A stretch of 10,480 bases of DNA from Acidobacteriota bacterium (GTDB taxonomy: Bacteria > Acidobacteriota > Vicinamibacteria > Vicinamibacterales > Vicinamibacteraceae): the NCBI GenBank assembly GCA_013695405.1, contig JACDAO010000459.1, positions 1 to 10,480 on the forward strand, given 5' to 3'. Under the pieces are notes generated by a model. It had not been told where the DNA came from, searched no databases, and worked only from the letters and a program-made list of their open reading frames with translations. Below, piece after piece: positions 345-10,480 of the stretch. Positions within the stretch are counted from its first letter, which is position 1; each line of letters starts with the position of its first letter. The translations under genes were made by a program, and so were the position numbers.

Positions 345-1145
345 CTACACGTTCTCCGCGAACTGGAACTCTGCGCGGTGGAACATCAACCACGCCCAAG
401 CCAGCCCCACCACCGACAGCAGTGCCACGGCGCCAAAAGCCGCCGGATCCGGCAGTCGGTTGAAGAGCAACACGTCCCTGTAGGCATCGATGATCGGTGT
501 CATCGGGTTGAGTTGCATGAGGACCGCGGTCTTGCCACCCACCAGGCTGACTGGATACAGCACGGACGTGGCAAACATCCACAGCTGAATCGTGACCTCG
601 AACAGGTACTTGACATCTCGGTAGAACAGATTGGCCATCGACAGCAACAGCGAGCACGCCATCGTGAAGCAGAGATGCACGGCCACCACCACCGGGAGCA
701 AGAGAATCGCCGAGCCGGGCACGACGCCGTAGTACGCCATCATCGCGACGAGCACCGCCGACGCCACGAGGGAGTCGACAAGCGAGACGAGCACGGCAGA
801 GAACGGAAAAATCTCCCGCGGAAAGTACACCTTCGTGACCAGCGAGGTGTTGCTCGTCAGTGAATTGACCGCGGTGCGCAGCGACGAGGCAAAGAAGTTC
901 CAGCCCAGCAGCCCCGTGAACACAAACAACGGGTACGGCATGCCGACGTCGATCTTCGCGACACGCGTGAAGATGACCGAGAAGATCGCGGTATTGACCA
1001 GCGGCATGAAAATCGCCCACGCGAACCCCATGGCCGCCTGCTTGTAGCGCAGCACGAGGTCGCGTCTGGTCATCTGGAAGAGCAGCTCGCGGTAATCGAA
1101 CTGCTCAGCGAGGAGCTCACGGAAATCCTTCAGCATCTCGCTCAT
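345..1145 (-). CDS. wzm: Polysaccharide ABC exporter permease (Wzm/TagG type, ABC2_membrane family)
   Basis: This is a 266-residue inner-membrane permease that forms the channel of a polysaccharide ABC exporter with the adjacent ATPase. A cytoplasmic N-terminus with the amphipathic stretch LLFQMTRRDLVLRYKQAAMG (about 21-40) is followed by about six hydrophobic segments (roughly 41-62, 72-90, 112-140, 144-170, 181-203, 235-255). The motif NPMTPIIDAYRDVL at 213-226 is typical of Wzm/TagG permeases, and the length matches the family (about 260-270). I chose the ATG at 1145. The frame stays open to 1337, but the extra 64 residues are Arg/Ser/Pro-rich and unlike any Wzm N-terminus. A second ATG three codons later (1136) is possible. 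Only a weak GAGAGA precedes the chosen start. The ATPase follows after two bases. Confidence 0.93.
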   Translation of the reverse strand: MSEMLKDFRELLAEQFDYRELLFQMTRRDLVLRYKQAAMGFAWAIFMPLVNTAIFSVIFTRVAKIDVGMPYPLFVFTGLLGWNFFASSLRTAVNSLTSNTSLVTKVYFPREIFPFSAVLVSLVDSLVASAVLVAMMAYYGVVPGSAILLLPVVVAVHLCFTMACSLLLSMANLFYRDVKYLFEVTIQLWMFATSVLYPVSLVGGKTAVLMQLNPMTPIIDAYRDVLLFNRLPDPAAFGAVALLSVVGLAWAWLMFHRAEFQFAENV

Positions 1146-1344
1146 TCTCTCACTAGTCGGAAGGTGTTCCGGCTTGCACGCGAGCGAGAGCCGGCTCCGC
1201 AGCCCGCGCCGCCCCCCGTCAATCGGCCTGTGCCGCGCCGGGTTGAGGGATGACGGCCCCGCAAAAAATGCGCTCAGCTCAACTGAAGCGACGTGCCCGC
1301 AGGAACCCGAGCGACGACTGCCGCGGCCGCGGCTCATGCCGGAT

Positions 1345-1366
1345 GTACACGATGACGATTGTGTAC
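1345..1366. promoter_or_regulatory. Inverted repeat GTACAC-N10-GTGTAC, candidate operator
   Basis: The two six-base arms are perfectly complementary (1345-1350 and 1361-1366). Within the ten-base centre two further A-T steps on each side are also symmetric (pattern GTACACnATnnnnATnGTGTAC). This size and symmetry fit a dimeric helix-turn-helix regulator. It lies just upstream of the -35 element of the dehydrogenase promoter and about 200 bp from the permease start, so it could control either direction. No regulator is encoded nearby, so the binding protein is unknown. Confidence 0.4.
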
Positions 1367-1386
1367 GCGCCGGACCCGCTCCCGAG

Positions 1387-1415
1387 TTGCCCGGCAGCGC
1401 CGCGCCTGCTACCCT
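1387..1415 (+). promoter_or_regulatory. Sigma70-type promoter for the nucleotide-sugar dehydrogenase
   Basis: TTGCCC (1387-1392) and TACCCT (1410-1415) are separated by exactly 17 bases and match the -35/-10 pattern of housekeeping promoters. Transcription would begin near 1421-1423, giving a leader of about 40 bases before the ATG at 1464. Confidence 0.5.
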
Positions 1416-1463
1416 GCTCGGTTGGCAATGGTCGGACCGCCCTCGCCGAAGACATGCACCTCA

Positions 1464-2777
1464 ATGACTGACATCCTCTCGCGCATCAACGACCGCACGG
1501 CAGTCGTCGGCATTATCGGGCAGGGCTACGTCGGCCTGCCGCTCGGCCTCGTCTTCGAGGAAGCGGGCTTCACCGTGCTCGGGCTGGACGTCGATCAGGC
1601 AAAGATCGACGCGCTCACCCGCGGTGAGTCGTATATCCGCCACATCGGCTCCGAGAGGGTGCGCGACGCCGTCGCCCGCGGTCGATTCCGCGCCACCACC
1701 AACTTCGAGCAGCTGTCGGAATGCGATGCCGTCCTGGTGTGCGTCCCCACCCCGCTCGGCGAGCATCGTGAACCTGACCTGTCGTACATCCACAAGACCA
1801 CGGCCGTGATCGCCGCGCACCTGCGGAAAGGTCAGCTGGTGGTGCTGGAGTCCACCACGTATCCCGGCACGACGGATGAGGAGGTGCTCCCCATCCTGGA
1901 GGCCACCGGCCTCCGCTGCCCGGACGACTTCTTGCTCGCGTTCTCCCCTGAACGTGAGGACCCGGGAAACGCCCACTTCAACACCAAGTCCATCCCGAAG
2001 GTCGTCGGTGGCGTGAACGCACCGTCCACCGAGGCGGCCGTGGCGCTCTATGCCGCTGCCGTGGACACCGTCGTGGCGGTGTCCTCGGCCCGCGTCGCCG
2101 AGTCGAGCAAGCTGCTGGAAAACGTCTACCGTTCCGTCAACATCGCACTCGTGAACGAGCTGAAGGTGACGTTCGACCGGATGGGCATCAACGTCTGGGA
2201 AGTGATCGCCGCGGCGCGCACCAAGCCGTTCGGCTTCACGCCCTTCTACCCGGGTCCCGGCCTCGGCGGGCACTGCATTCCGCTCGATCCCTTCTACCTG
2301 TCGTGGAAAGCGGCAGAGTTCGGCATGTGGACCCGGTTCATCGAACTGGCCGGCGAGATCAACACGTCGATGCCGCGGTACGTCGTGAGCAAGGTCACCG
2401 ACGCCCTCAACGGCGAGCGCAAGAGCGTCAACGGCGCGAGAATTCTCGTGCTTGGCCTGAGCTACAAGGAGAACATCGACGATGACCGCGAGTCGCCCTC
2501 CTACGAGCTGATCGAGTCGCTGGCCGAGCTCGGGGCGGACGTCGACTATTGCGACCCCTTCTTCGAGCGCGCCAGGCACGGCCGGAAGCACAATCTGGAC
2601 CTTGCCGCGGTGCCCTGTACCAACGAGGTGTTCCGGACCTACGACGCGCTGGTGGTCTCCACCGCTCACGCGCAGTTCAAGGACGCGGCGCTGTACGAGG
2701 GCGTGCGCCTGGTGGTCGATACCCGCAACATCGCGACCGAGTCTCCCGTCGGGCCGTTCAGGGTCGTGCGCGCCTGA
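1464..2777 (+). CDS. wbpA: UDP-N-acetyl-D-glucosamine 6-dehydrogenase (WbpA family)
   Basis: The enzyme oxidises C6 of a UDP-sugar to the uronic acid using two NAD+, in the cytosol, to supply acidic sugars for surface polysaccharide. The 437 residues have the three domains of the UDP-sugar dehydrogenase family: a Rossmann NAD domain with GIIGQGYVG at 16-24, a central helical domain with the conserved lysine in ESSKLLEN (K216), the catalytic cysteine in GPGLGGHCIP (C271), and a C-terminal UDP-binding domain with GLSYKENIDDDRESPS at 331-346. Stretches such as HREPDLS, LESTTYPGTT and SPEREDPGN follow Pseudomonas WbpA closely, which favours UDP-GlcNAc over UDP-glucose, but substrate is inferred. 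I chose the ATG at 1464 because MTDIL places the Rossmann strand normally; an in-frame ATG at 1428 would add 12 residues. No clear ribosome binding site is visible. The gene is convergent with fumarylacetoacetase, 32 bp apart, with no obvious terminator. Confidence 0.93.
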   Translation: MTDILSRINDRTAVVGIIGQGYVGLPLGLVFEEAGFTVLGLDVDQAKIDALTRGESYIRHIGSERVRDAVARGRFRATTNFEQLSECDAVLVCVPTPLGEHREPDLSYIHKTTAVIAAHLRKGQLVVLESTTYPGTTDEEVLPILEATGLRCPDDFLLAFSPEREDPGNAHFNTKSIPKVVGGVNAPSTEAAVALYAAAVDTVVAVSSARVAESSKLLENVYRSVNIALVNELKVTFDRMGINVWEVIAAARTKPFGFTPFYPGPGLGGHCIPLDPFYLSWKAAEFGMWTRFIELAGEINTSMPRYVVSKVTDALNGERKSVNGARILVLGLSYKENIDDDRESPSYELIESLAELGADVDYCDPFFERARHGRKHNLDLAAVPCTNEVFRTYDALVVSTAHAQFKDAALYEGVRLVVDTRNIATESPVGPFRVVRA

Positions 2778-2809: not shown

Positions 2810-4138
2810 TCACCCGCGAGCTGCCAGCACCTCGCCGGCGCAGGCCCCGAAGCGGCCGCCCGCACCCGACGTCCACTGCGCGCTGAGCGTCACGACGTCG
2901 CCGTCCTCGAGAAAACGCCTCTGCTCGCCTGACGTCAGCGGCAGGGGCTCGCTGCCCCGCCAGGTCCGCTCCAGCAGACAGCCGCGTGATTCCGGCGTTG
3001 GCCCGGACACGGTGCCGGTGCCGAGCAGATCTCCGGGACGCAGGTTGCAGCCGTTGCTGGCGTGATGCGCGACAAGCTGCGCCGGCGTCCAATACAGATC
3101 CCGCAGATTGCTCTGGCTGACGCGCATCGGTGACTGACGGTGGTCTCGCATGGCGCGCGACGACAGCGTGACGTCGAGCGTGACGTCAAACGCGCCCGCT
3201 GCCTGATCGTCGGCGTCCTCGAGGTACGGCAACAGCGCGAGCCCGTCTGGGCCACGCGCCGCCGCGGCGACGCGGCACGGCGCCAGCGACTCGAGCGTGG
3301 TCACCCACGGCGAGATCGAGGTGGCGAAGCTCTTGGCCAGGAAGGGACCGAGCGGCTGGTACTCCCAGGCCTGGACGTCGCGGGCCGACCAGTCGTTGAG
3401 CAGCACCATACCGAAGACCCGGTCGAGCGCCGCGGCAATCGGCACGGACTCGCCGAGCCGGTTCGCGCCGCCGATGACCAGGCCCACCTCCAGTTCGTAA
3501 TCGAGCCGCCGCGACGGTTCGAACACCGGTCGATCCCCACCGGCCGCCAAGGTCTGCCCGCAGGGCCGGCGCACCGGTGTGCCGCTGACAACGACCGACG
3601 AGGCGCGGCCGTGGTAGCCGATCGGCAAATGCCGATAATTCGGGAGCAGCGGCTGGTCCGGCCGCAGCATCGTGCCGACGTTGGTGGCGTGGTGGATCGA
3701 CGCGTAGAAGTCGGTGTAGTCGCCAACCGTGCACGGCAGGTGCAGGTGGACCGACGCGATCGGGTGCAGCGCCGCGCGTACCGACTCGCGGGCAGCGCGC
3801 CAGCCGTCCTCGCCGTCGACCAGCAACGCGAACAGCCGGTGCCGCAAGGCCGACCAGTGCGCCGGGGTGAGCGCCAGCAGTGCGTTCAACTGCGGCGAGC
3901 ACATGGCCTCGGCGAGCGGCCTGGGCAGCCCGTCGCAGACACCTGCCGACGTGCACCTGGCGAGGTCGAGCACCTGCTGGCCGATTGCCACGCCAATGCG
4001 CGGCGTCACGTCGTCGCCGGCCGGGGTGAACACCCCGAATGGCAGGTTCTGGACCGGAAACGCCTCGGTCGGACCGGCCCCGGCCGGCAACCAGGAGCGC
4101 GCGGCCGGGTCGTGCGTGTGATCGATCGCCGGAAGCAT
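2810..4138 (-). CDS. fahA: Fumarylacetoacetase (FAH), EC 3.7.1.2
   Basis: This is the last enzyme of the homogentisate pathway; it cleaves fumarylacetoacetate to fumarate and acetoacetate in the cytosol. The 442 residues contain the N-terminal SH3-like domain (NLPFGVFTP at 31-39) and the FAH catalytic fold. Key residues align with mammalian FAH: metal ligands D143 (in DYTDFY), E215 and E217 (in YELEVG) and D249 (in LNDWSARD); catalytic H150 (in HHATNVG); Q256; K269 (in GPFLAKSF). The motif GTGTVSGPTPES at 373-384 is also typical. The length is close to the usual 420-440. It is the last gene of the operon: its ATG directly abuts the TAG of the preceding gene, with no intervening base, which suggests translational coupling since no Shine-Dalgarno site is visible. 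It is oriented convergently to the dehydrogenase gene. The assignment is secure. Confidence 0.97.
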   Translation of the reverse strand: MLPAIDHTHDPAARSWLPAGAGPTEAFPVQNLPFGVFTPAGDDVTPRIGVAIGQQVLDLARCTSAGVCDGLPRPLAEAMCSPQLNALLALTPAHWSALRHRLFALLVDGEDGWRAARESVRAALHPIASVHLHLPCTVGDYTDFYASIHHATNVGTMLRPDQPLLPNYRHLPIGYHGRASSVVVSGTPVRRPCGQTLAAGGDRPVFEPSRRLDYELEVGLVIGGANRLGESVPIAAALDRVFGMVLLNDWSARDVQAWEYQPLGPFLAKSFATSISPWVTTLESLAPCRVAAAARGPDGLALLPYLEDADDQAAGAFDVTLDVTLSSRAMRDHRQSPMRVSQSNLRDLYWTPAQLVAHHASNGCNLRPGDLLGTGTVSGPTPESRGCLLERTWRGSEPLPLTSGEQRRFLEDGDVVTLSAQWTSGAGGRFGACAGEVLAARG

Positions 4139-5077
4139 CTACGAGACCAGCCCGAGGGCTCGCGCCTCCGCCACCGGCTGGTCGAAACTGCAACTGCCGA
4201 TGCTCCGTACCAGGGCGCGGCCCGAGACGGCGAACGGCTCGAGCGGACCCTCGATGATCGGGCCGTGCGCACCGTGCCAGTCGATCACCGAATGCCCCGC
4301 CAACCGCGGCGGCTCGGTGACCGACAGCAGCCGCTCGACCGTCGCGATCACGTCCCCGCTCTGCACCGCCGCGCGCCCGGCGCCCTCGGCGATGCCGGCG
4401 GCCAACACCAGATTGAGATAGCCGAACATCGGGGTGCGCACGCTATCACACGCATCGGTCAGCGGATACGCACCCGTCAACGCATGGTGCAAGCCCGCCG
4501 TCGCCTTGCTGACGATGCCACGGGCCATCGAGGCCGACAGGAACTGCGCGACCGCCGCGGCCGACGGCACCGTGTCAGCCGTCGTCCCACCGGCGCGCAG
4601 CTTGGCGTGCAGGCCGAACCGGGCGACCGCGTCGAGCAGGCCCTCCATGGCGTCGCCGACCGGACACTCGCAGAACACCTCGAAGCCGCGGCTCGCCCAG
4701 ACTCGCGCCGCCCTGACATCGTCGACCGACGTCACCTTCAGTTCGACGGTGTCGACAATGGCCGCGCCGTCGGACGAGTCGGCATGCCGCCGGTTGAAGC
4801 TGCTGACCTGGGCGACATCGGTCTGCGGATCGACACCACCCAGCACGCTGAGCCGCCAGCACTTGGCCACCGCGCCACGCGGGAGGTGCGGCCGGGCCGC
4901 AGCCGAGAATGCATCGAGCTGCGCCGCCGGCACGATGAAGCGCCCGAGCATCCAGGCGTCGCTCCCGGCGCGGTACCCGGCGTACCTGGCTATGGCCTGT
5001 TCCAGCGGCAGCGACGCCGGTGCGAACACGCCGGCATAGTCGAACAGGCGAGCCAGCAGGGCGTGAGCGCGCGGCAC
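4139..5077 (-). CDS. Uncharacterised 312-aa protein in the homogentisate operon
   Basis: I do not recognise a named family. The protein has no signal peptide or membrane segment. Its residues alternate hydrophobic strands and helices (FIVP 47-50, WRLSVLG 74-80, VELKV 111-115, FEVFCECPV 132-140, HAKLRAGG 157-164, IVSKATAGLHH 188-198, FGYLNLVLAAG 218-228), which suggests a beta/alpha barrel. The two lysine motifs, AKLRAGG (K159) and SKATAGLHH (K191), recall the paired lysines of deoxyribose-phosphate aldolase; this resemblance is only by eye. Residues 293-301 (IGSCSFDQP) look like a conserved C-terminal motif, and C136/C138 lie in a strand. The start is the GTG at 5077, seven bases after the hmgA stop, and the TAG abuts the FAH start codon. 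Its position between hmgA and fahA, where maleylacetoacetate isomerase is required, and the absence of that enzyme here, make a role in this step possible. Coding reality is well supported; function is a hypothesis. Confidence 0.85.
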   Translation of the reverse strand: MPRAHALLARLFDYAGVFAPASLPLEQAIARYAGYRAGSDAWMLGRFIVPAAQLDAFSAAARPHLPRGAVAKCWRLSVLGGVDPQTDVAQVSSFNRRHADSSDGAAIVDTVELKVTSVDDVRAARVWASRGFEVFCECPVGDAMEGLLDAVARFGLHAKLRAGGTTADTVPSAAAVAQFLSASMARGIVSKATAGLHHALTGAYPLTDACDSVRTPMFGYLNLVLAAGIAEGAGRAAVQSGDVIATVERLLSVTEPPRLAGHSVIDWHGAHGPIIEGPLEPFAVSGRALVRSIGSCSFDQPVAEARALGLVS

Positions 5078-5084
5078 GGTCGGC

Positions 5085-6236
5085 CTACTCGATCCACGAC
5101 CGGTAGTAGTCGCGGTCCTCGACGTCGAGCGCCTGCGTGCTGACCCGCAGGGGATGGAAGGTGTCGAGCATCACGGCCAGTTCGGTCGTCTCCTTCTGGC
5201 CGAGCGACGCCTCGGTGCGACCCGGGTGCGGGCCGTGGGGCACGCCGTCCGGGTGCAGCGTCACCGATCCGTATTCGATGCCCTTGCGGCTCATGAACTC
5301 GGAGCTCGCGTAGTACAGCACCTCGTCGGACATGACGTTGGAGTGGTTGTACGGCACCGGCACCGCCTGCGGATCGAAGTCGTAGGGCCGCGGGCAGAAC
5401 GAGCAGATCACGAAGTTGTCGCCTTCGAAGGTCTGGTGCGTCGGCGGTGGCAGATGCACCCGACCGACTCGGGGCTCGAAGTCGGCGATGTTGAAGGCCC
5501 ACGGATAGTAGTAGCCGTCCCAGCCGACCACGTCGAACGGGTGATGGTCGAGCACGAATTCGGTCAGCCGAGCGTCCTTCTTGACGACGATCCGGAACTC
5601 GCCGCGTTCGTCCCGCGCCAGCTGGTTGACCGGCCGGCGGATGTCGCGCTCCGAGAACGGCGCGCTTTCGGTCAGCTGGCCGTGTTCGTTGCGATACCGC
5701 TTCGGCGTGCGGACGTAGCCACGGCTCTCGATCACCAGGCATCTCACTGGCGAGGCGAAGATGTAGTGGTGCAGGATGCCGCGCGGGATGACCAGGTAAT
5801 CACCGCGGTCGAATGGGATCTGCCCCAGCTGCGTCTCGAGCGTGCCGCTGCCGTCACTGACGTACACCACCTCGTCGCCCTGCGCGTTGCGGTAGTAGAA
5901 GTCGTCTTCGCCGGTCGGCGCGACGAACGACATCGCGACATCGTCGTTGAACAGCAGCGGGATGCGGTCGGCGGTGATGCTGGACGTCGTGCCCAGCCTG
6001 GCCGTCCGGAAGTGTCGGTGCCTGAACTCCCGGTCGGTCTCCTCCTTCCACGCCAGCGCCCTGAGCGTCCTGGTGGCGCGGATCTGCGTCGGCTGCTGAA
6101 TGTGATAGAGCAGCGACGACGGCCCGACGAAGCCCTTGTTGCCGATCAACTCCTCGGCGTAGAGCGCGCCGTTGCCCTGCCGGAAGACGATGTGCCGCTT
6201 GCGAGGCATCTGTCCGAGCGTGTGGTAGATCGGCAT
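5085..6236 (-). CDS. hmgA: Homogentisate 1,2-dioxygenase, short bacterial type
   Basis: This non-haem Fe(II) cupin opens the ring of homogentisate with O2 to give maleylacetoacetate. The 383 residues are shorter than the classic enzyme (about 430-445) and match the short branch seen in several bacterial groups. Iron-site motifs are visible: the first histidine in PYNHSNVMSDEV (H298) and the last in GVPHGPHPG (H334), corresponding to human H335 and H371. The acidic ligand position (human E341) is occupied by D304, followed at once by E305. HHPFDVVGWDGYYYPWAFNI (231-250) and THQTFEGDNFVICSF (266-280) are well-formed family segments. The ATG at 6236 is two bases after the hppD stop; no ribosome site is visible, so coupling is likely. 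Neighbours hppD and fahA support the role. A related ring-cleaving dioxygenase specificity is possible but less likely. Confidence 0.93.
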   Translation of the reverse strand: MPIYHTLGQMPRKRHIVFRQGNGALYAEELIGNKGFVGPSSLLYHIQQPTQIRATRTLRALAWKEETDREFRHRHFRTARLGTTSSITADRIPLLFNDDVAMSFVAPTGEDDFYYRNAQGDEVVYVSDGSGTLETQLGQIPFDRGDYLVIPRGILHHYIFASPVRCLVIESRGYVRTPKRYRNEHGQLTESAPFSERDIRRPVNQLARDERGEFRIVVKKDARLTEFVLDHHPFDVVGWDGYYYPWAFNIADFEPRVGRVHLPPPTHQTFEGDNFVICSFCPRPYDFDPQAVPVPYNHSNVMSDEVLYYASSEFMSRKGIEYGSVTLHPDGVPHGPHPGRTEASLGQKETTELAVMLDTFHPLRVSTQALDVEDRDYYRSWIE

Positions 6237-6238
6237 GG

Positions 6239-7327
6239 CTACAGATTGCCACGAAGTTCCTGCTCCCGCTCGATCGCTTCGAACAACGCGCGGAAGTTGC
6301 CCTTGCCGAAGCCGCGACTGCCCTTGCGCTGAATGATCTCGTAGAAGACGGTCGGACGGTCCTCGACCGGACGCGAGAACAGCTGCAGCAGGTAGCCTTC
6401 CTCGTCACGATCGACCAGGATGCGCAGCGAGCGGACCATCTCGATCGCCTCCTCGATCTCCCCGACGCGCTGCGGCAGCATGTCGTAGTAGGAATCGGGC
6501 ACGCTGAGGAACTCGACGCCGTTGGCGCGCAAGCGGGTCACCGTCTGCTCGATGTCGGCAGAGAGCAGCGCCACATGTTGCACGCCCGGCCCGCCGTAGA
6601 AGTCCAGGTATTCGTCGATCTGGCTCTTGCGCTTGCCGGCGGCCGGCTCGTTGAGCGGGAACTTGATGGCGTACGAGTTGTCCGACATCACAATGCTCAT
6701 CAGCGCGCTGTACTCGGTGGAGATGTCCTTGTCGTCGAAGCTGATGTAACGCGCGAAGCCGAGCACGGTGCTGTACCAGGTGGCCCAGTGCTCCATCTGA
6801 CCGAGTTCGACGTTGCCGACCATGTGATCGACCCGCAGGATGCCGACATCCTCGCCCGCGATCGGGCGCGGCACGTAACCAGGCAGGAACGGGCCGGTGT
6901 AGTCGGTGAACGAGTAGAAGGAGTGCACGGTGTCGCCGTAGGTCCGGATCGCGGCATGGCGTACCGAACCGTGCTCGTCCGACAGCGTCCGCGGCTCGAC
7001 CGCCGGCTGCGCCCCGCGGCGCACCGCCTCGCCGAACGCCGCGTCGGCATCCTCGACGTGGAAGGCGATGTCGACCACGCCGTCGCCATGGCGGTGGAGG
7101 TGGTCGGCTTCCGGTGAGGTGGACCTGTAGGGCGTGGCGAGCACGAACCGCGCCTTGCCCTGCTGCATGGCGTGGCAGGCCAGGTCGCGCGATCCGGTTT
7201 CGAGGCCGGCGTAGGCAAACTGCGAGAAGCCGAACGCCTTGCGGTAGTAGTACGCGGCTTGCTTGGCGTTGCCGACCACGAAGGTGACGTGGTGAATGCT
7301 CTTCAGGCGCAGCGGGTTGTCCGGCAC
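6239..7327 (-). CDS. hppD: 4-Hydroxyphenylpyruvate dioxygenase, EC 1.13.11.27
   Basis: The enzyme converts 4-hydroxyphenylpyruvate, from tyrosine transamination, to homogentisate and CO2 with Fe(II) and O2. The 362 residues form two vicinal-oxygen-chelate domains (about 10-150 and 163-345). The iron triad is visible: H168 in VDHMVGNV, H251 in GVQHVAL and E330 in FYEIIQRKG. The C-terminal gating stretch [21 protein letters not shown] is typical of true HPPD rather than 4-hydroxymandelate synthase, and hmgA and fahA follow directly. I chose the GTG at 7327 because GAGGA at 7334-7338 precedes it by six bases, the best ribosome site in the window. An in-frame TTG at 7345 would add six residues and place that site inside the gene. 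It is the first gene of the four-gene operon, divergent from the response regulator. Confidence 0.95.
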
Positions 7328-7352
7328 GGCACATCCTCGATCCAAGAAGAAT

Positions 7353-7372: not shown

Positions 7373-7442
7373 TCCCACATACCGTTCGTGCGGCAAATGC
7401 CGAGCGGGCGCGCGGCTCCCCAACGACGCCGGAGTCGCCACG

Positions 7443-7448
7443 TATACT
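7443..7448 (+). promoter_or_regulatory. -10 element TATACT close to the response regulator start
   Basis: TATACT is near-consensus for a -10 box and lies only eight bases before the GTG start codon, so transcription would begin at or just before the codon. No -35 match is seen at the expected distance (CCAACG at 7420-7425) and no ribosome binding site is visible. This would fit a leaderless message. Confidence 0.4.
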
Positions 7449-7456
7449 GCCCGACT

Positions 7457-8506
7457 GTGGCCACGCTCACCGAGCCCATCACCAGGGCACGGATCCTCAT
7501 TGTCGACGACCAGGCCCCGAACATCCGCCTGCTCGAACGGCTGCTGACGACCGGCGGCTACCACCGGCTGTATTCGACGACCGTGCCCGAGCAGGTGGCC
7601 GGTCTGGTCGCCCAGGTCAGCCCCGACCTGATCCTGCTCGACCTGCACATGCCCGGGCTCGACGGCTTCGGCGTGATGGAACAGCTCAGGACCCGCCTGG
7701 ACGAAGAGCGCTACCTCCCGATCCTGGTAGTGACCGCCGACCTCAGCGTCGAGGTCCGGCAGCGCGCGCTCGGGGCCGGGGCCCGCGACTTCCTGAACAA
7801 GCCGTTCGACGCGGTCGAGGCCCTGCTCCGCATCCGCAACCTGCTGGTGACCCGTTTCCTGTACCTGCAGCTGGACAACCACAACCGCGGTCTCGAGGCG
7901 ACCGTTCAGGAACGGACCCGCAAGCTCGAGGTGGCCCGGCTCGAGATCCTCGAGCGGCTGGCGCTGGCCGCGGAGTTCCGCGACGACAACACCGGCGAGC
8001 ACACGCGGCGCGTTGGACGGATGGCGGGTGCGCTGGCGCGCGAGCTCGGGCTGGCCGGCGAGGAGGCGCTGACCATCGAGCGTGCGGCGCCGCTGCACGA
8101 CGTCGGCAAGATCGGCATCCGCGACGCGATCCTGCTCAAGTCGGGCGTGCTGAGCCCGGCCGAAGACGAGGAGATGCAGCGGCACACCGTGATTGGCGCG
8201 AACATCCTGTCGGGCAGCCAGGGCGCGCTGCTGCGCATCGCCGAGGACATCGCCCTCACGCACCACGAGCGCTGGGACGGCGCTGGGTACCCGCGCGGCC
8301 TGTCGCGCCTCGCCATTCCGTTGGCCGGACGGATCACCCACGTCGCCGACGTGTTCGACGCCATGACCCACCCCCACGCCGGGGCGGGCCCGACCAGCGG
8401 GACCGACCAGGCCGTCGACTTCATCCGCGAGCACGCGGGCGCGCACTTCGACCCGGACGTGGTGGACGCCTTCCTGACGGTCGGCAGGAAGATCCAACAA
8501 ACGTAG
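7457..8506 (+). CDS. Response regulator with HD-GYP domain (probable c-di-GMP phosphodiesterase)
   Basis: A cytosolic two-component output protein of 349 residues. The receiver domain (about 10-128) has acidic residues D17/D18, phospho-acceptor D62 in LLDLHMPGLDG, T93 and K115 in NKPF. A charged helical, probably coiled-coil linker (about 138-170) leads to the HD-GYP domain (about 170-342). Its metal and catalytic residues are present: E181/H182, H214/D215 and K218 in HDVGKIGI, H243, H269/H270 and the DGAGYP signature at 274-279, and D301 in VADVFDA. The usual SDRPYR motif after the last of these is absent, replaced by THPHAGAGPTSGT. The GTG at 7457 was chosen because the receiver begins at RARILIVDD; the open frame upstream covers the promoter. 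No partner histidine kinase is in the window. The TAG stop lies inside the first REP-like repeat. Biochemical activity is inferred from intact residues. Confidence 0.93.
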   Translation: MATLTEPITRARILIVDDQAPNIRLLERLLTTGGYHRLYSTTVPEQVAGLVAQVSPDLILLDLHMPGLDGFGVMEQLRTRLDEERYLPILVVTADLSVEVRQRALGAGARDFLNKPFDAVEALLRIRNLLVTRFLYLQLDNHNRGLEATVQERTRKLEVARLEILERLALAAEFRDDNTGEHTRRVGRMAGALARELGLAGEEALTIERAAPLHDVGKIGIRDAILLKSGVLSPAEDEEMQRHTVIGANILSGSQGALLRIAEDIALTHHERWDGAGYPRGLSRLAIPLAGRITHVADVFDAMTHPHAGAGPTSGTDQAVDFIREHAGAHFDPDVVDAFLTVGRKIQQT

Positions 8507-8565: not shown

Positions 8566-9951
8566 TCACTGTGGGGCGGGCGCGCGGCCCGCCATCAGGC
8601 CGACGATGAGGGCGGCGGCGGAGGCGGCCAGACCCCAGACGACGGGCGCGAGACCGGCGAGGCCGACGCCACGGGTGCCCACCTCCAGCGCCACGGTGAC
8701 AAGGGCGCCGGCAGCCATCGCGGCACGCGCGTCCGACCTCCTGGCACGCGGCAGGAACAGTCCGGCCACCACCGGCACGAACAGGCTGGCACTGAGCACG
8801 CTGTAGAACAGCTTCATCGCGGTGATGATGCTGCCCGCCCAGATTGCCACCGCTACGCCCAGCACGCCACTGGCCACCGCGGCGATCCGCGCCACGCGCA
8901 ACTGCTCGACGTCGGTCGCGCCAGGCCACAGGTGACCGCGGTACAGATCGCGCGCCATCGACGTCGAGAGCATGAACAGCACGGCGTCGGCGGTGCTGAC
9001 CTCGGCGGAGAAGAGCGCCGCCATTGCCAAGGTGCCCAGCCACGGCGGCAGGTCGTCGTGCAGCAGCGTCGGCAGCGCCAGCTCGTGGTTGCCGAGGGTC
9101 GGATGCAGCACCCGTGCGAGCATGCCGAGCAGCGGCGGCACCGCCGCGAACAGCAGCAACACCACCGCGTTGACGAGCACGCCGGTTCGCACCGTCCGCG
9201 TGTCGCGCGCCCCGAAGACCTTCTGCAGCAAGCCCGGTGAGACGACGAAGGACGGCGCCAGCAGCGCCACGTACATCAAGCCGGATGCGCCGCCGCCGAG
9301 CGGATTCCAGTAGCCGGGCGGGACCGCTGGCGCCACCAGGGTTGCGAGGCCGCCCGCCGCGTGCCAGGCAAACGGGACGGCCAGCAGCAGGCCAGCCACC
9401 AGCACCACCACCTGGACCTGGTTGACCAGAGTCGACGAGCGCAGCCCGCCACTTGTGAAGTAGAGAGTGGCGACGACCCCGCCGATGATGCAACCGTACG
9501 TCCGCGGCAGCCCGGCGACGACCTCGAGCAGGCCGGCCAGCGCAATCAACTGCGCCGCGAGAATCGAGAGCGATCCGCACCACAGCAGCACGGCCATCAC
9601 GGCGCGCACATCCGGACCGAACCGGGCGTGCAGGTAGTCGCCGACGGTGCGGTGATCGTCGGCCGCCGCAACACGCCAGATGCGGGGGCCGACCCACAGT
9701 CCGAGCGCCACCGACCCGAGACCGGCCGATCCGACCCACCACCACGCAGCGACGCCGTCGCGGTAGCCGAGGCCTGCGGCGCCGACGGTCGACCCGGCGC
9801 CGATGTTGGCGGCGATCAAGGTGCCTGCGAGCAGGACCGGCGACAGTTGCCGGCCGGCGACGAAGAACTCCGGCGCCGTCATCCGGCGCGACGACCACCA
9901 GCCAATCGCGACCAGCGCGGCCGCGTAGACTAGCAGGAAGACCAGCGACAT
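8566..9951 (-). CDS. Sodium:solute symporter (SSS family)
   Basis: A 461-residue inner-membrane secondary transporter of the SSS family, which couples uptake of sugars, amino acids, carboxylates or similar solutes to Na+. About 12-13 hydrophobic segments are visible. Signature features include EFFVAGRQLSPVLLAGTLIAANIGAGSTVG at about 28-57 (first core helix) and AALFSAEVSTADAVLFMLST at 311-330, where S319 and T320 occupy the place of the Na2-site hydroxyls. The start is the ATG at 9951, which places the first membrane helix (SLVFLLVYAAALVAIGWW) at the N-terminus; the frame is open further up only through the overlapping peptidase gene. The gap to the peptidase stop is seven bases, so the two form an operon and the cargo may be a product of that peptidase. 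Substrate cannot be told from sequence. Confidence 0.92.
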   Translation of the reverse strand: MSLVFLLVYAAALVAIGWWSSRRMTAPEFFVAGRQLSPVLLAGTLIAANIGAGSTVGAAGLGYRDGVAAWWWVGSAGLGSVALGLWVGPRIWRVAAADDHRTVGDYLHARFGPDVRAVMAVLLWCGSLSILAAQLIALAGLLEVVAGLPRTYGCIIGGVVATLYFTSGGLRSSTLVNQVQVVVLVAGLLLAVPFAWHAAGGLATLVAPAVPPGYWNPLGGGASGLMYVALLAPSFVVSPGLLQKVFGARDTRTVRTGVLVNAVVLLLFAAVPPLLGMLARVLHPTLGNHELALPTLLHDDLPPWLGTLAMAALFSAEVSTADAVLFMLSTSMARDLYRGHLWPGATDVEQLRVARIAAVASGVLGVAVAIWAGSIITAMKLFYSVLSASLFVPVVAGLFLPRARRSDARAAMAAGALVTVALEVGTRGVGLAGLAPVVWGLAASAAALIVGLMAGRAPAPQ

Positions 9952-9958
9952 CGCGGGT

Positions 9959-10480
9959 TCAACGGAGGCTGCGCGCCGACGGCAGAAACGGCAACGGCTC
10001 GGCGTGGCGCACCGCCGACAGAATGGCCTGGGCAGTGACGTCGGCGGCGAGGGCGCCGACCAGCCCCACGTCGGCCGCGCCGGTCTTCCTGCCGGTGGCC
10101 AGGGCGAAGATCGTGTCGCCATCCGAGGGCGTGTGGGCCGGCACGATCGCGCGGGCAAAGCCGTCGTGCGCCATGCGCGCCACCAGCGACGCCTCGGTTT
10201 TGGACAGGGTCGCGTTGGTGGCGACGATCCCCAGCGTGGTGTTGCCCCCCGGCGCATGCGGCGTGGGCAGGCCCTGCCGCAGCAGCAGGCGCGCATCGGC
10301 CAGCGCCCGGCCGTCCTCGGTGCGGACACCCGCGACGACGGCGCCGGTCGCCGGATCGACGACGTCACCGCGGGCGTTGACCGCGACCAGTGCCGCCACC
10401 ACCAGCCCGGACGGCAGGTGAATCGACGCCGAGCCTATCCCGCCTTTCATCGCGCGGCTGATGCCGTACAGTTTGCCGAC
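9959..10480 (-). CDS. P1/S58 family peptidase (DmpA/NylC-like), C-terminal part
   Basis: This is the C-terminal 173 residues of an N-terminal-nucleophile hydrolase of the DmpA/NylC family (L-aminopeptidase/D-esterase, beta-aminopeptidase or oligoamide hydrolase). The precursor cleaves itself so that a Ser or Thr becomes the nucleophile. The visible part includes VGKLYGISRAMKGGIGSAS at 1-19, VVAALVAVNARGDVVDP at 27-43, the probable self-cleavage site GGN|TT (N80/T81), and ARMAHDGFARAIVPAHTPSDGDTIFALATG at 101-130. All are typical. The N-terminal part lies beyond the window edge, so I read the frame through to 10480 rather than using the internal ATG at 10450. The gene precedes the symporter by seven bases in the same direction. 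Family membership is strong; substrate is unknown. DmpA itself uses Ser, whereas this protein has Thr, as NylC does. Confidence 0.93.
   Translation of the reverse strand, partial: VGKLYGISRAMKGGIGSASIHLPSGLVVAALVAVNARGDVVDPATGAVVAGVRTEDGRALADARLLLRQGLPTPHAPGGNTTLGIVATNATLSKTEASLVARMAHDGFARAIVPAHTPSDGDTIFALATGRKTGAADVGLVGALAADVTAQAILSAVRHAEPLPFLPSARSLR

Follow-up and report, generated by a model that had tools for sequence, protein, structure and literature searches.

A protein family encoded beside fumarylacetoacetase in several bacterial phyla is a candidate glutathione-independent maleylacetoacetate isomerase

In bacteria that possess homogentisate 1,2-dioxygenase (HmgA) and fumarylacetoacetase (FAH) but no recognised maleylacetoacetate isomerase (MaiA), no known enzyme accounts for the step linking the two. 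MaiA isomerises maleylacetoacetate with glutathione. The question of what might take its place is raised by the window, a stretch of 10,480 nucleotides from an Acidobacteriota bacterium, which contains a run of four genes on the minus strand:

6239..7345, minus strand: hppD, 4-hydroxyphenylpyruvate dioxygenase (TIGR01263, 446.1 bits against a cut-off of 277), first in the apparent operon
5085..6236, minus strand: hmgA-like homogentisate 1,2-dioxygenase, 383 amino acids (PF20510 and PF04209, HgmA_N and HgmA_C, over the Pfam cut-offs)
4139..5077, minus strand: the candidate, a putative glutathione-independent maleylacetoacetate isomerase, 312 amino acids, GTG start at 5077 (from the open reading frame and its junctions)
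2810..4138, minus strand: fahA, fumarylacetoacetase (TIGR01266, 506.9 bits against a cut-off of 375.3; PF01557 and PF09298)

The stop codon of the hmgA-like gene (5085-5087) is separated by 7 bp (5078-5084) from the GTG of the candidate (5075-5077), and the stop codon TAG of the candidate (4139-4141) abuts the ATG of fahA (4136-4138), leaving 0 bp; these positions agree with an earlier sequence-only reading, which had placed a 312-amino acid gene 7 bp from hmgA and 0 bp from fahA. The same reading had assigned HPPD, HmgA and FAH to the operon, and Pfam and NCBIfam support it, with the qualification that the hmgA-like gene is of a short divergent type because its product scores 70.3 bits against TIGR01015, far under the cut-off of 510.75. 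It had also seen no GST-zeta-type or DinB-type isomerase in the window, and neither family appears in the Pfam or NCBIfam lists of the nine window proteins scanned (for the response regulator, the NCBIfam list holds the best 25 of 104 families). As for the possibility that a canonical maiA lies elsewhere in the same genome, MaiA has no match at E ≤ 1 in the window's assembly (3.86 Mb in 831 contigs, 94.7% complete), and glutathione synthase has none at E ≤ 1e-15.

The stretch from 4139 to 5077 is a real gene, because the 120 relatives listed, apart from the window's own protein, are 37-71% identical, mostly over at least 96% of the length, and close relatives share the start position. Nothing in Pfam or NCBIfam (E ≤ 1) or among the PDB sequences (E ≤ 10) matches the protein. 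A search of 5.8 billion proteins gave at least 894 relatives at E ≤ 0.001 (among 8000 candidate sequences scored); the 120 relatives listed are called 'hypothetical protein' where they have a name, and the closest named organism among these listed matches is Luteitalea. A search with the Tsukamurella protein gave 452 relatives, of which a few carry the automatic names Aldolase, HpcH/HpaI aldolase or hydroxymethylglutaryl-CoA lyase. At least 573 relatives were confirmed in one-per-species genomes, and the 80 loci kept belong, by record titles, mainly to Gemmatimonadota, Acidobacteriota, Chloroflexota, Planctomycetota and the Bacteroidota/Chlorobi/Ignavibacteria group, a few titles being vague or doubtful (L020, 'Deltaproteobacteria', whose genome was sampled with the window's phylum; L046, 'Leptolyngbya'). 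The candidate is also found on 24 plasmid records (three queries) of Actinomycetota, Bacillota and Cyanobacteriota (Streptomyces 11, Priestia 6, Pseudonocardia 2, Rhodococcus 2, Tsukamurella 1, Nonomuraea 1 and Kovacikia 1), none of the 24 being from Pseudomonadota by organism name. The family spans eight phyla.

Comparison of 51 members with Pfam and NCBIfam, and of 49 more with Pfam (E ≤ 10), did not disclose a known family under another name: only scattered weak matches were obtained, including those to Amidohydro_2 in one of the 51 (E 0.0067) and to an IS2 transposase model in three of the 51 (best E 0.0022). The family profiles A1, A2 and A3 have no PDB match at E ≤ 0.001; the best is an NAD(P)H-flavin oxidoreductase (E 0.011 over 57 positions, E 0.71 with the broader profile). 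At the level of sequence, GST-family Pfam models match neither the window protein nor the 51 and 49 members scanned, and the candidate has no match to TIGR01262 (GST-zeta MaiA) at E ≤ 1. Pfam models of the mycothiol-dependent maleylpyruvate isomerase/DinB group are likewise without a match in the window protein (E ≤ 1) and the scanned members (E ≤ 10), as are those of the Asp/Glu racemase superfamily in both sets; PF01557, of the FAH superfamily, is absent from the candidate and present in its neighbour (2810-4138). No publication on the family was found in the full-text literature, most subscription journals lying outside it, by titles and abstract openings among the matches listed; in their accessible parts, the main text of PMC9007349 does not use the word 'maleylacetoacetate' and PMC11012174 has nothing on the candidate gene. 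The proposed reaction is already known, but the protein family carrying it out would be new.

The genomic neighbourhood ties the family to fahA. FAH is present in 70 of the 80 related loci, downstream and on the same strand in 70 of 70, with a median of 12.5 bp from the candidate's stop codon to the first FAH-like base (within 100 bp in 60/70 and within 250 bp in 64/70). In five of the ten FAH-less loci the contig stops less than 170 bp from the match (L014, L033, L040, L048 and L069), and for the five that have room (L046, L057, L059, L076 and L077) FAH is encoded elsewhere in each genome. Over its cut-off, FAH was found in 50 of 51 candidate-positive genomes, the sole miss being G160, the assembly of L069. 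In tblastn searches (E ≤ 1e-8) that used the proteins of the window as queries, HmgA being of the divergent type, hmgA and hppD lie in the fetched flanks of only 12 of the 80 loci each, which marks FAH, the proposed user of the product, as the specific partner. Among the relatives it is therefore the coupling to fahA, more than that to hmgA, that is conserved. The sequence-only reading would have taken a maiA elsewhere in the same genome, or homologues lying mostly away from hmgA, as refuting an isomerase; neither outcome refutes it, since most homologues lie beside genes of the pathway, although with fahA as partner more often than hmgA.

The window's gene order is found again on plasmids, and is thus repeated in named, cultivable bacteria. 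In all 15 of the candidate-bearing plasmid loci examined (of the 24 records), fahA is directly downstream of the candidate (X): the order is hppD-X-fahA-hisC-hmgA in three plasmid loci of Priestia, hmgA-X-fahA in Pseudonocardia, Rhodococcus and Nonomuraea, hppD-hmgA-X-fahA in Tsukamurella, and, among six Streptomyces loci, hmgA-X-fahA-CoA-transferase A/B in three and X-fahA with no hmgA in the stretch in the other three. On the megaplasmid pA of Kovacikia minuta (L154), the candidate overlaps or abuts fahA, with hppD and hmgA upstream on the opposite strand. The X-fahA order thus recurs across eight phyla. The candidate was found in none of six Proteobacterial plasmid fahA loci, four of which have maiA annotated beside fahA; the FAH proteins of these six loci are 44-55% identical to that of the window. 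FAH itself was found on 119 plasmid records (one query, E ≤ 1e-30), topped by Paracoccus (16) and Sphingobium (14). The divergent HmgA type is common to those candidate-bearing plasmid loci that have hmgA (42-52% identity to the window's), and five of the six Proteobacterial fahA loci contain only a distant match to the window's HmgA (23-26%).

The distribution of the family among whole genomes follows that of FAH. In a sample of 119 genomes from the window's phylum, 23 encode FAH over the cut-off and 19 encode the candidate, all 19 being among the 23 (20 further genomes have weak, below-cut-off matches to the FAH model). In 148 genomes from the phylum of locus L066 (titled Candidatus Thermochlorobacteriaceae; presumably Bacteroidota in GTDB), 55 encode FAH and 22 the candidate, again all within the FAH-positive set, and a broader profile likewise gave 22 of 148. 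No candidate was found in the FAH-negative genomes of either sample (0/96 and 0/93, respectively); over both samples, 41 of the 78 genomes with FAH and none of the remaining 189 encode the candidate. Fisher p values of 1.8e-18 (window's phylum) and 1.4e-11 (L066 phylum) are inflated by genome relatedness; with the window's phylum collapsed to 82 genera, and relatedness otherwise ignored, p is 1.4e-14. An overlapping sample around genome G131 (149 genomes, 25 with the candidate) mostly repeats the sample of 119 and is kept outside these totals. Adjacency is not the sole source of the link, because some copies do not directly adjoin FAH: 3 of 19 in the window's phylum (one at a distance of 2.8 kb, two at approximately 300 kb) and, in the L066 phylum, 10 of 22 (four at approximately 3 kb, six on another contig or at approximately 200 kb).

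MaiA was found over its cut-off in none of the 119 genomes of the window's phylum, the 148 of the L066 phylum or the 50 of related loci, compared with 1 of 14 control genomes (Caulobacter). The last set comprises the genomes of 50 of the 80 loci, picked for taxonomic spread (27 of the 30 left out are titled Gemmatimonas or a Gemmatimonadota taxon), to which genome G000 is added for FAH and glutathione synthase. Co-occurrence with hmgA and fahA in genomes lacking a GST-zeta-type maiA had been put forward in the sequence-only reading as support for an isomerase; co-occurrence with FAH, in genomes in which MaiA was not recognised, is strong. Weaker GST-like matches to the MaiA model at E ≤ 1e-5 occur in 21 of the 119 genomes of the window's phylum; among its FAH-positive genomes such matches, far below the cut-off, are found in 2 of 19 with the candidate (G031 and G074) and in 0 of 4 with FAH only. 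A MaiA hidden near FAH was sought with four plasmid MaiA queries, which matched only their own source loci (tblastn, 232 loci, E ≤ 1e-3). None of the 51 candidate-positive genomes has glutathione synthase (gshB, TIGR01380) over the cut-off, compared with 3 of the 14 controls; weaker matches occur in 7 of the 51 (best 186.5 bits versus a cut-off of 299).

Isomerisation of maleylacetoacetate is the sole step of the pathway without a recognised enzyme in the genomes examined. Because its gene lies beside fahA in several phyla in which the usual glutathione-dependent isomerase was not found, the candidate probably performs this missing step, and genomic context thus favors a glutathione-independent, non-orthologous maleylacetoacetate isomerase. 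In this reaction, which we infer, the candidate would turn the product of HmgA, maleylacetoacetate, into fumarylacetoacetate, the substrate of the adjacent FAH. Like MaiA/GSTZ1 (TIGR01262), the candidate would catalyze this reaction from the slot between HmgA and FAH, and maiA is beside fahA in four Proteobacterial plasmid loci just as the candidate is elsewhere. Unlike MaiA, to which it has no sequence match, the candidate is a protein of 312 rather than approximately 210 amino acids, and it is found in genomes with neither MaiA nor glutathione synthase over the cut-off. The absence of glutathione is not a strict condition, because a cyanobacterial plasmid carries the candidate and cyanobacteria generally make glutathione.

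Each of nine polar residues, Lys191 and Cys296 among them, is shared by at least 97% of the members in an alignment of 347 sequences. The most conserved positions are Lys191 (347/347), Glu137, Lys159, Gly219 and Asn222 (346/347 each), Pro20 and Pro301 (344/347), Asp13, Glu112 and Arg161 (343/347), His197 (340/347) and Cys296 (338/347), and their counterparts, the cysteine included, are invariant in a Tsukamurella-led alignment of 49 sequences. Such a pattern of polar residues looks like that of an enzyme. Four of these codons in the window, computed from the start of the open reading frame and checked by eye on the sequence, are:

4601..4603, minus strand: Lys159, in the KxRxGG motif (346/347)
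4505..4507, minus strand: Lys191, in the KATAGLHH motif (347/347)
4412..4414, minus strand: Asn222 (346/347)
4190..4192, minus strand: Cys296, in the GSCS motif, the proposed nucleophile (338/347)

As read from the alignment, most of the conserved segments fall in or just after a hydrophobic stretch, and the succession of Glu112, Glu137, Lys159-x-Arg161, Lys191, Asn222 and Cys296 resembles the order expected in a (beta-alpha)8 barrel. A tentative and rather doubtful mechanism can be drawn from these residues, in which Cys296 would take the role of MaiA's glutathione by adding to the activated double bond, the resulting single bond would rotate and Cys296 would then leave, while Lys191, Lys159, Arg161 and His197 would hold the substrate by its carboxylate and polarise its ketone, a lysine perhaps forming a Schiff base for this purpose. 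Independence from a thiol cofactor and the roles of individual residues are both what we infer. The proposed mechanism would share its use of an enzyme cysteine with maleate cis-trans isomerase, a cofactor-free member of the Asp/Glu racemase superfamily, but the candidate members scanned have no Pfam or NCBIfam match to that enzyme.

The nine of 347 members without the cysteine weaken the case for its role: three are divergent copies of the L066 phylum, four are close relatives (54-60% identity), one is cut short by a contig end and one is a shorter protein that aligns in part. When 21 of the 22 copies of that phylum were checked singly, 16 had kept the whole signature and five (genomes G360, G391, G441, G453 and G457; loci L188-L192) showed, in the alignment, a combined loss of Arg161, His197, Gly294 and Cys296; Lys159, Lys191 and Asn222 are retained in all five (two also lack Asp13 and one lacks Glu137). 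These five are all far from FAH, being among the six copies on another contig or approximately 200 kb away. That Arg161, His197 and Cys296 disappeared together suggests a shared part for them in the function linked to FAH, and the five copies may have drifted or changed role.

Several other readings of the same observations deserve consideration. It is unlikely, though less so than the readings that follow, that the candidate is an enzyme of the pathway other than its isomerase, which might remove side products (succinylacetoacetate or maleylacetoacetate derivatives), hydrolyse maleylacetoacetate or act on the released acetoacetate. Context ties the candidate to FAH rather than to a given reaction, the existence of FAH-positive genomes without it would suit an auxiliary step, and the automatic labels of a few relatives (Aldolase, HpcH/HpaI aldolase, hydroxymethylglutaryl-CoA lyase) would suit other chemistry; yet an auxiliary enzyme should be equally useful beside MaiA, and the candidate was found in none of the six Proteobacterial fahA loci, nor is any of the 24 plasmid records that carry it Proteobacterial by organism name, even though plasmids with FAH include 16 of Paracoccus and 14 of Sphingobium. 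That isomerisation is the one step here without a recognised enzyme also counts against such a role.

An isomerase that relies on another low-molecular-weight thiol (mycothiol, bacillithiol or coenzyme A) appears improbable; being a special form of glutathione-independent isomerase, it overlaps in likelihood with the preferred explanation. Known enzymes of this chemistry do use thiols, glutathione in MaiA and mycothiol in maleylpyruvate isomerase, the latter acting, in hosts that lack glutathione, on a ring-fission product whose cis-trans isomerisation is assisted by the thiol. Thiol types are expected to differ among Bacillota, Actinomycetota and Cyanobacteriota, however, and the family occurs in all three and in other hosts expected to differ in this respect; moreover, it has its own near-invariant cysteine. 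The maleylpyruvate isomerases belong to the gentisate pathway, and the candidate has no Pfam match to their family, for whose DinB-type members a helical DinB fold is expected. A mycothiol-linked maleylpyruvate isomerase is named in the accessible part of PMC6498646.

Slightly less probable again is an accessory role, in which the candidate would serve FAH or HmgA as a chaperone, activator or scaffold. A precedent, according to the accessible part of PMC3203155, is HmgX of Aspergillus fumigatus, an unnamed cytoplasmic protein needed in a tyrosine-degradation cluster, which by description is similar to the candidate in being an unnamed member of such a cluster, but HmgX belongs to the HppD step and occurs alongside maiA. 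The tight coupling of the candidate to fahA would fit a helper of FAH; the enzyme-like conservation of polar residues (Lys191 in 347/347; Glu137, Lys159 and Asn222 in 346/347) does not, and the FAH proteins of six Proteobacterial loci, 44-55% identical to that of the window, have no such neighbour. That the gene is unrelated to tyrosine breakdown and adjacent to it by accident, an alternative left standing by the sequence-only reading, is now strongly disfavoured, since the X-fahA order is found in eight phyla and no candidate-positive genome without FAH is found among 267 from two phyla, with only the five divergent copies of the L066 phylum (far from FAH and without Arg161, His197, Gly294 and Cys296) and the one candidate-positive assembly without FAH (G160) in its favor.

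A non-orthologous isomerase, the leading hypothesis of the sequence-only reading, thus stands as the best-supported explanation from context and co-occurrence, but it does not account for all FAH-positive genomes. Of the 78, 37 (33 of 55 in the L066 phylum and 4 of 23 in the window's phylum) have neither the candidate nor MaiA over the cut-off, and a Nocardia farcinica record has hmgA approximately 12 bp before fahA with no candidate between them. Consequently, either FAH is kept without the candidate, or a further isomerase or non-enzymatic route exists, and the assumption that a recognisable isomerase is required does not hold without exception. Loci of this kind, with FAH and neither family, include L108-L111 (genomes G034, G038, G085 and G093), L193-L212 and L165, and may have such a further isomerase or route. 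The reference list of PMC10970868 includes a 2002 study in mice whose title names a bypass of the latter type, glutathione-dependent and nonenzymatic. Rhodococcus ruber Chol-4 grows on homogentisate, and in the accessible part of PMC6498646 the genes named for the homogentisate cluster in a figure legend are hmgA and hmgB, with no isomerase among them, whereas the text mentions hmgABC genes.

Another isomerase was sought near FAH in 20 of the 33 such loci of the L066 phylum, and none of the recurrent neighbours is isomerase-like by sequence reading: they include flavin-reductase-like proteins (5/20), acetoacetyl-CoA synthetase-like proteins (2/20) and serine hydroxymethyltransferase (6/20). 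The candidate proteins of the same phylum have no tblastn match at E ≤ 0.01 in these 20 loci. The neighbouring genes were called with a longest-ORF script that missed known genes in some GC-rich loci, and a small or overlapping gene could therefore be missed. In one of the four candidate-less FAH loci of the window's phylum, the protein encoded between hppD and hmgA resembles phenylalanine hydroxylase by sequence reading.

If the candidate is an isomerase, it would be a non-orthologous counterpart of GSTZ1, a human disease-related enzyme, possibly with a new mechanism of cis-trans isomerisation, and annotation pipelines could name many hundreds of 'hypothetical proteins'. It offers one candidate enzyme for several phyla, from uncultured Acidobacteriota to cultivable Streptomyces, Priestia and Herpetosiphon, and makes the gap in the pathway directly testable. 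A bolder proposal, possible though it falls short of probable, is that a cofactor-free family of maleylacetoacetate isomerases in at least eight phyla uses its own cysteine and lysines in place of MaiA's glutathione; in bacteria such a family may predate GST-type MaiA, which would then have taken its place in the Proteobacteria and eukaryotes that make glutathione.

The remainder of the window encodes other functions. A response regulator with an HD-type output domain (7388-8506, plus strand; PF00072 and PF13487) is divergent from the adjoining hppD. Beyond it, on the minus strand of the stretch from 8566 to 10480, a Peptidase_S58-family gene (9959-10480; PF03576), of which the 5' end lies beyond the window, is followed by a gene for a sodium:solute symporter (PF00474), and the two are possibly a peptide-uptake and cleavage pair. 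At the other end, positions 1-2777 contain polysaccharide genes, including an ABC-2 export permease (345-1337, minus strand), the start of an ABC ATPase (as read from the translation) that runs off the window edge, and a nucleotide-sugar dehydrogenase (1359-2777, plus strand).
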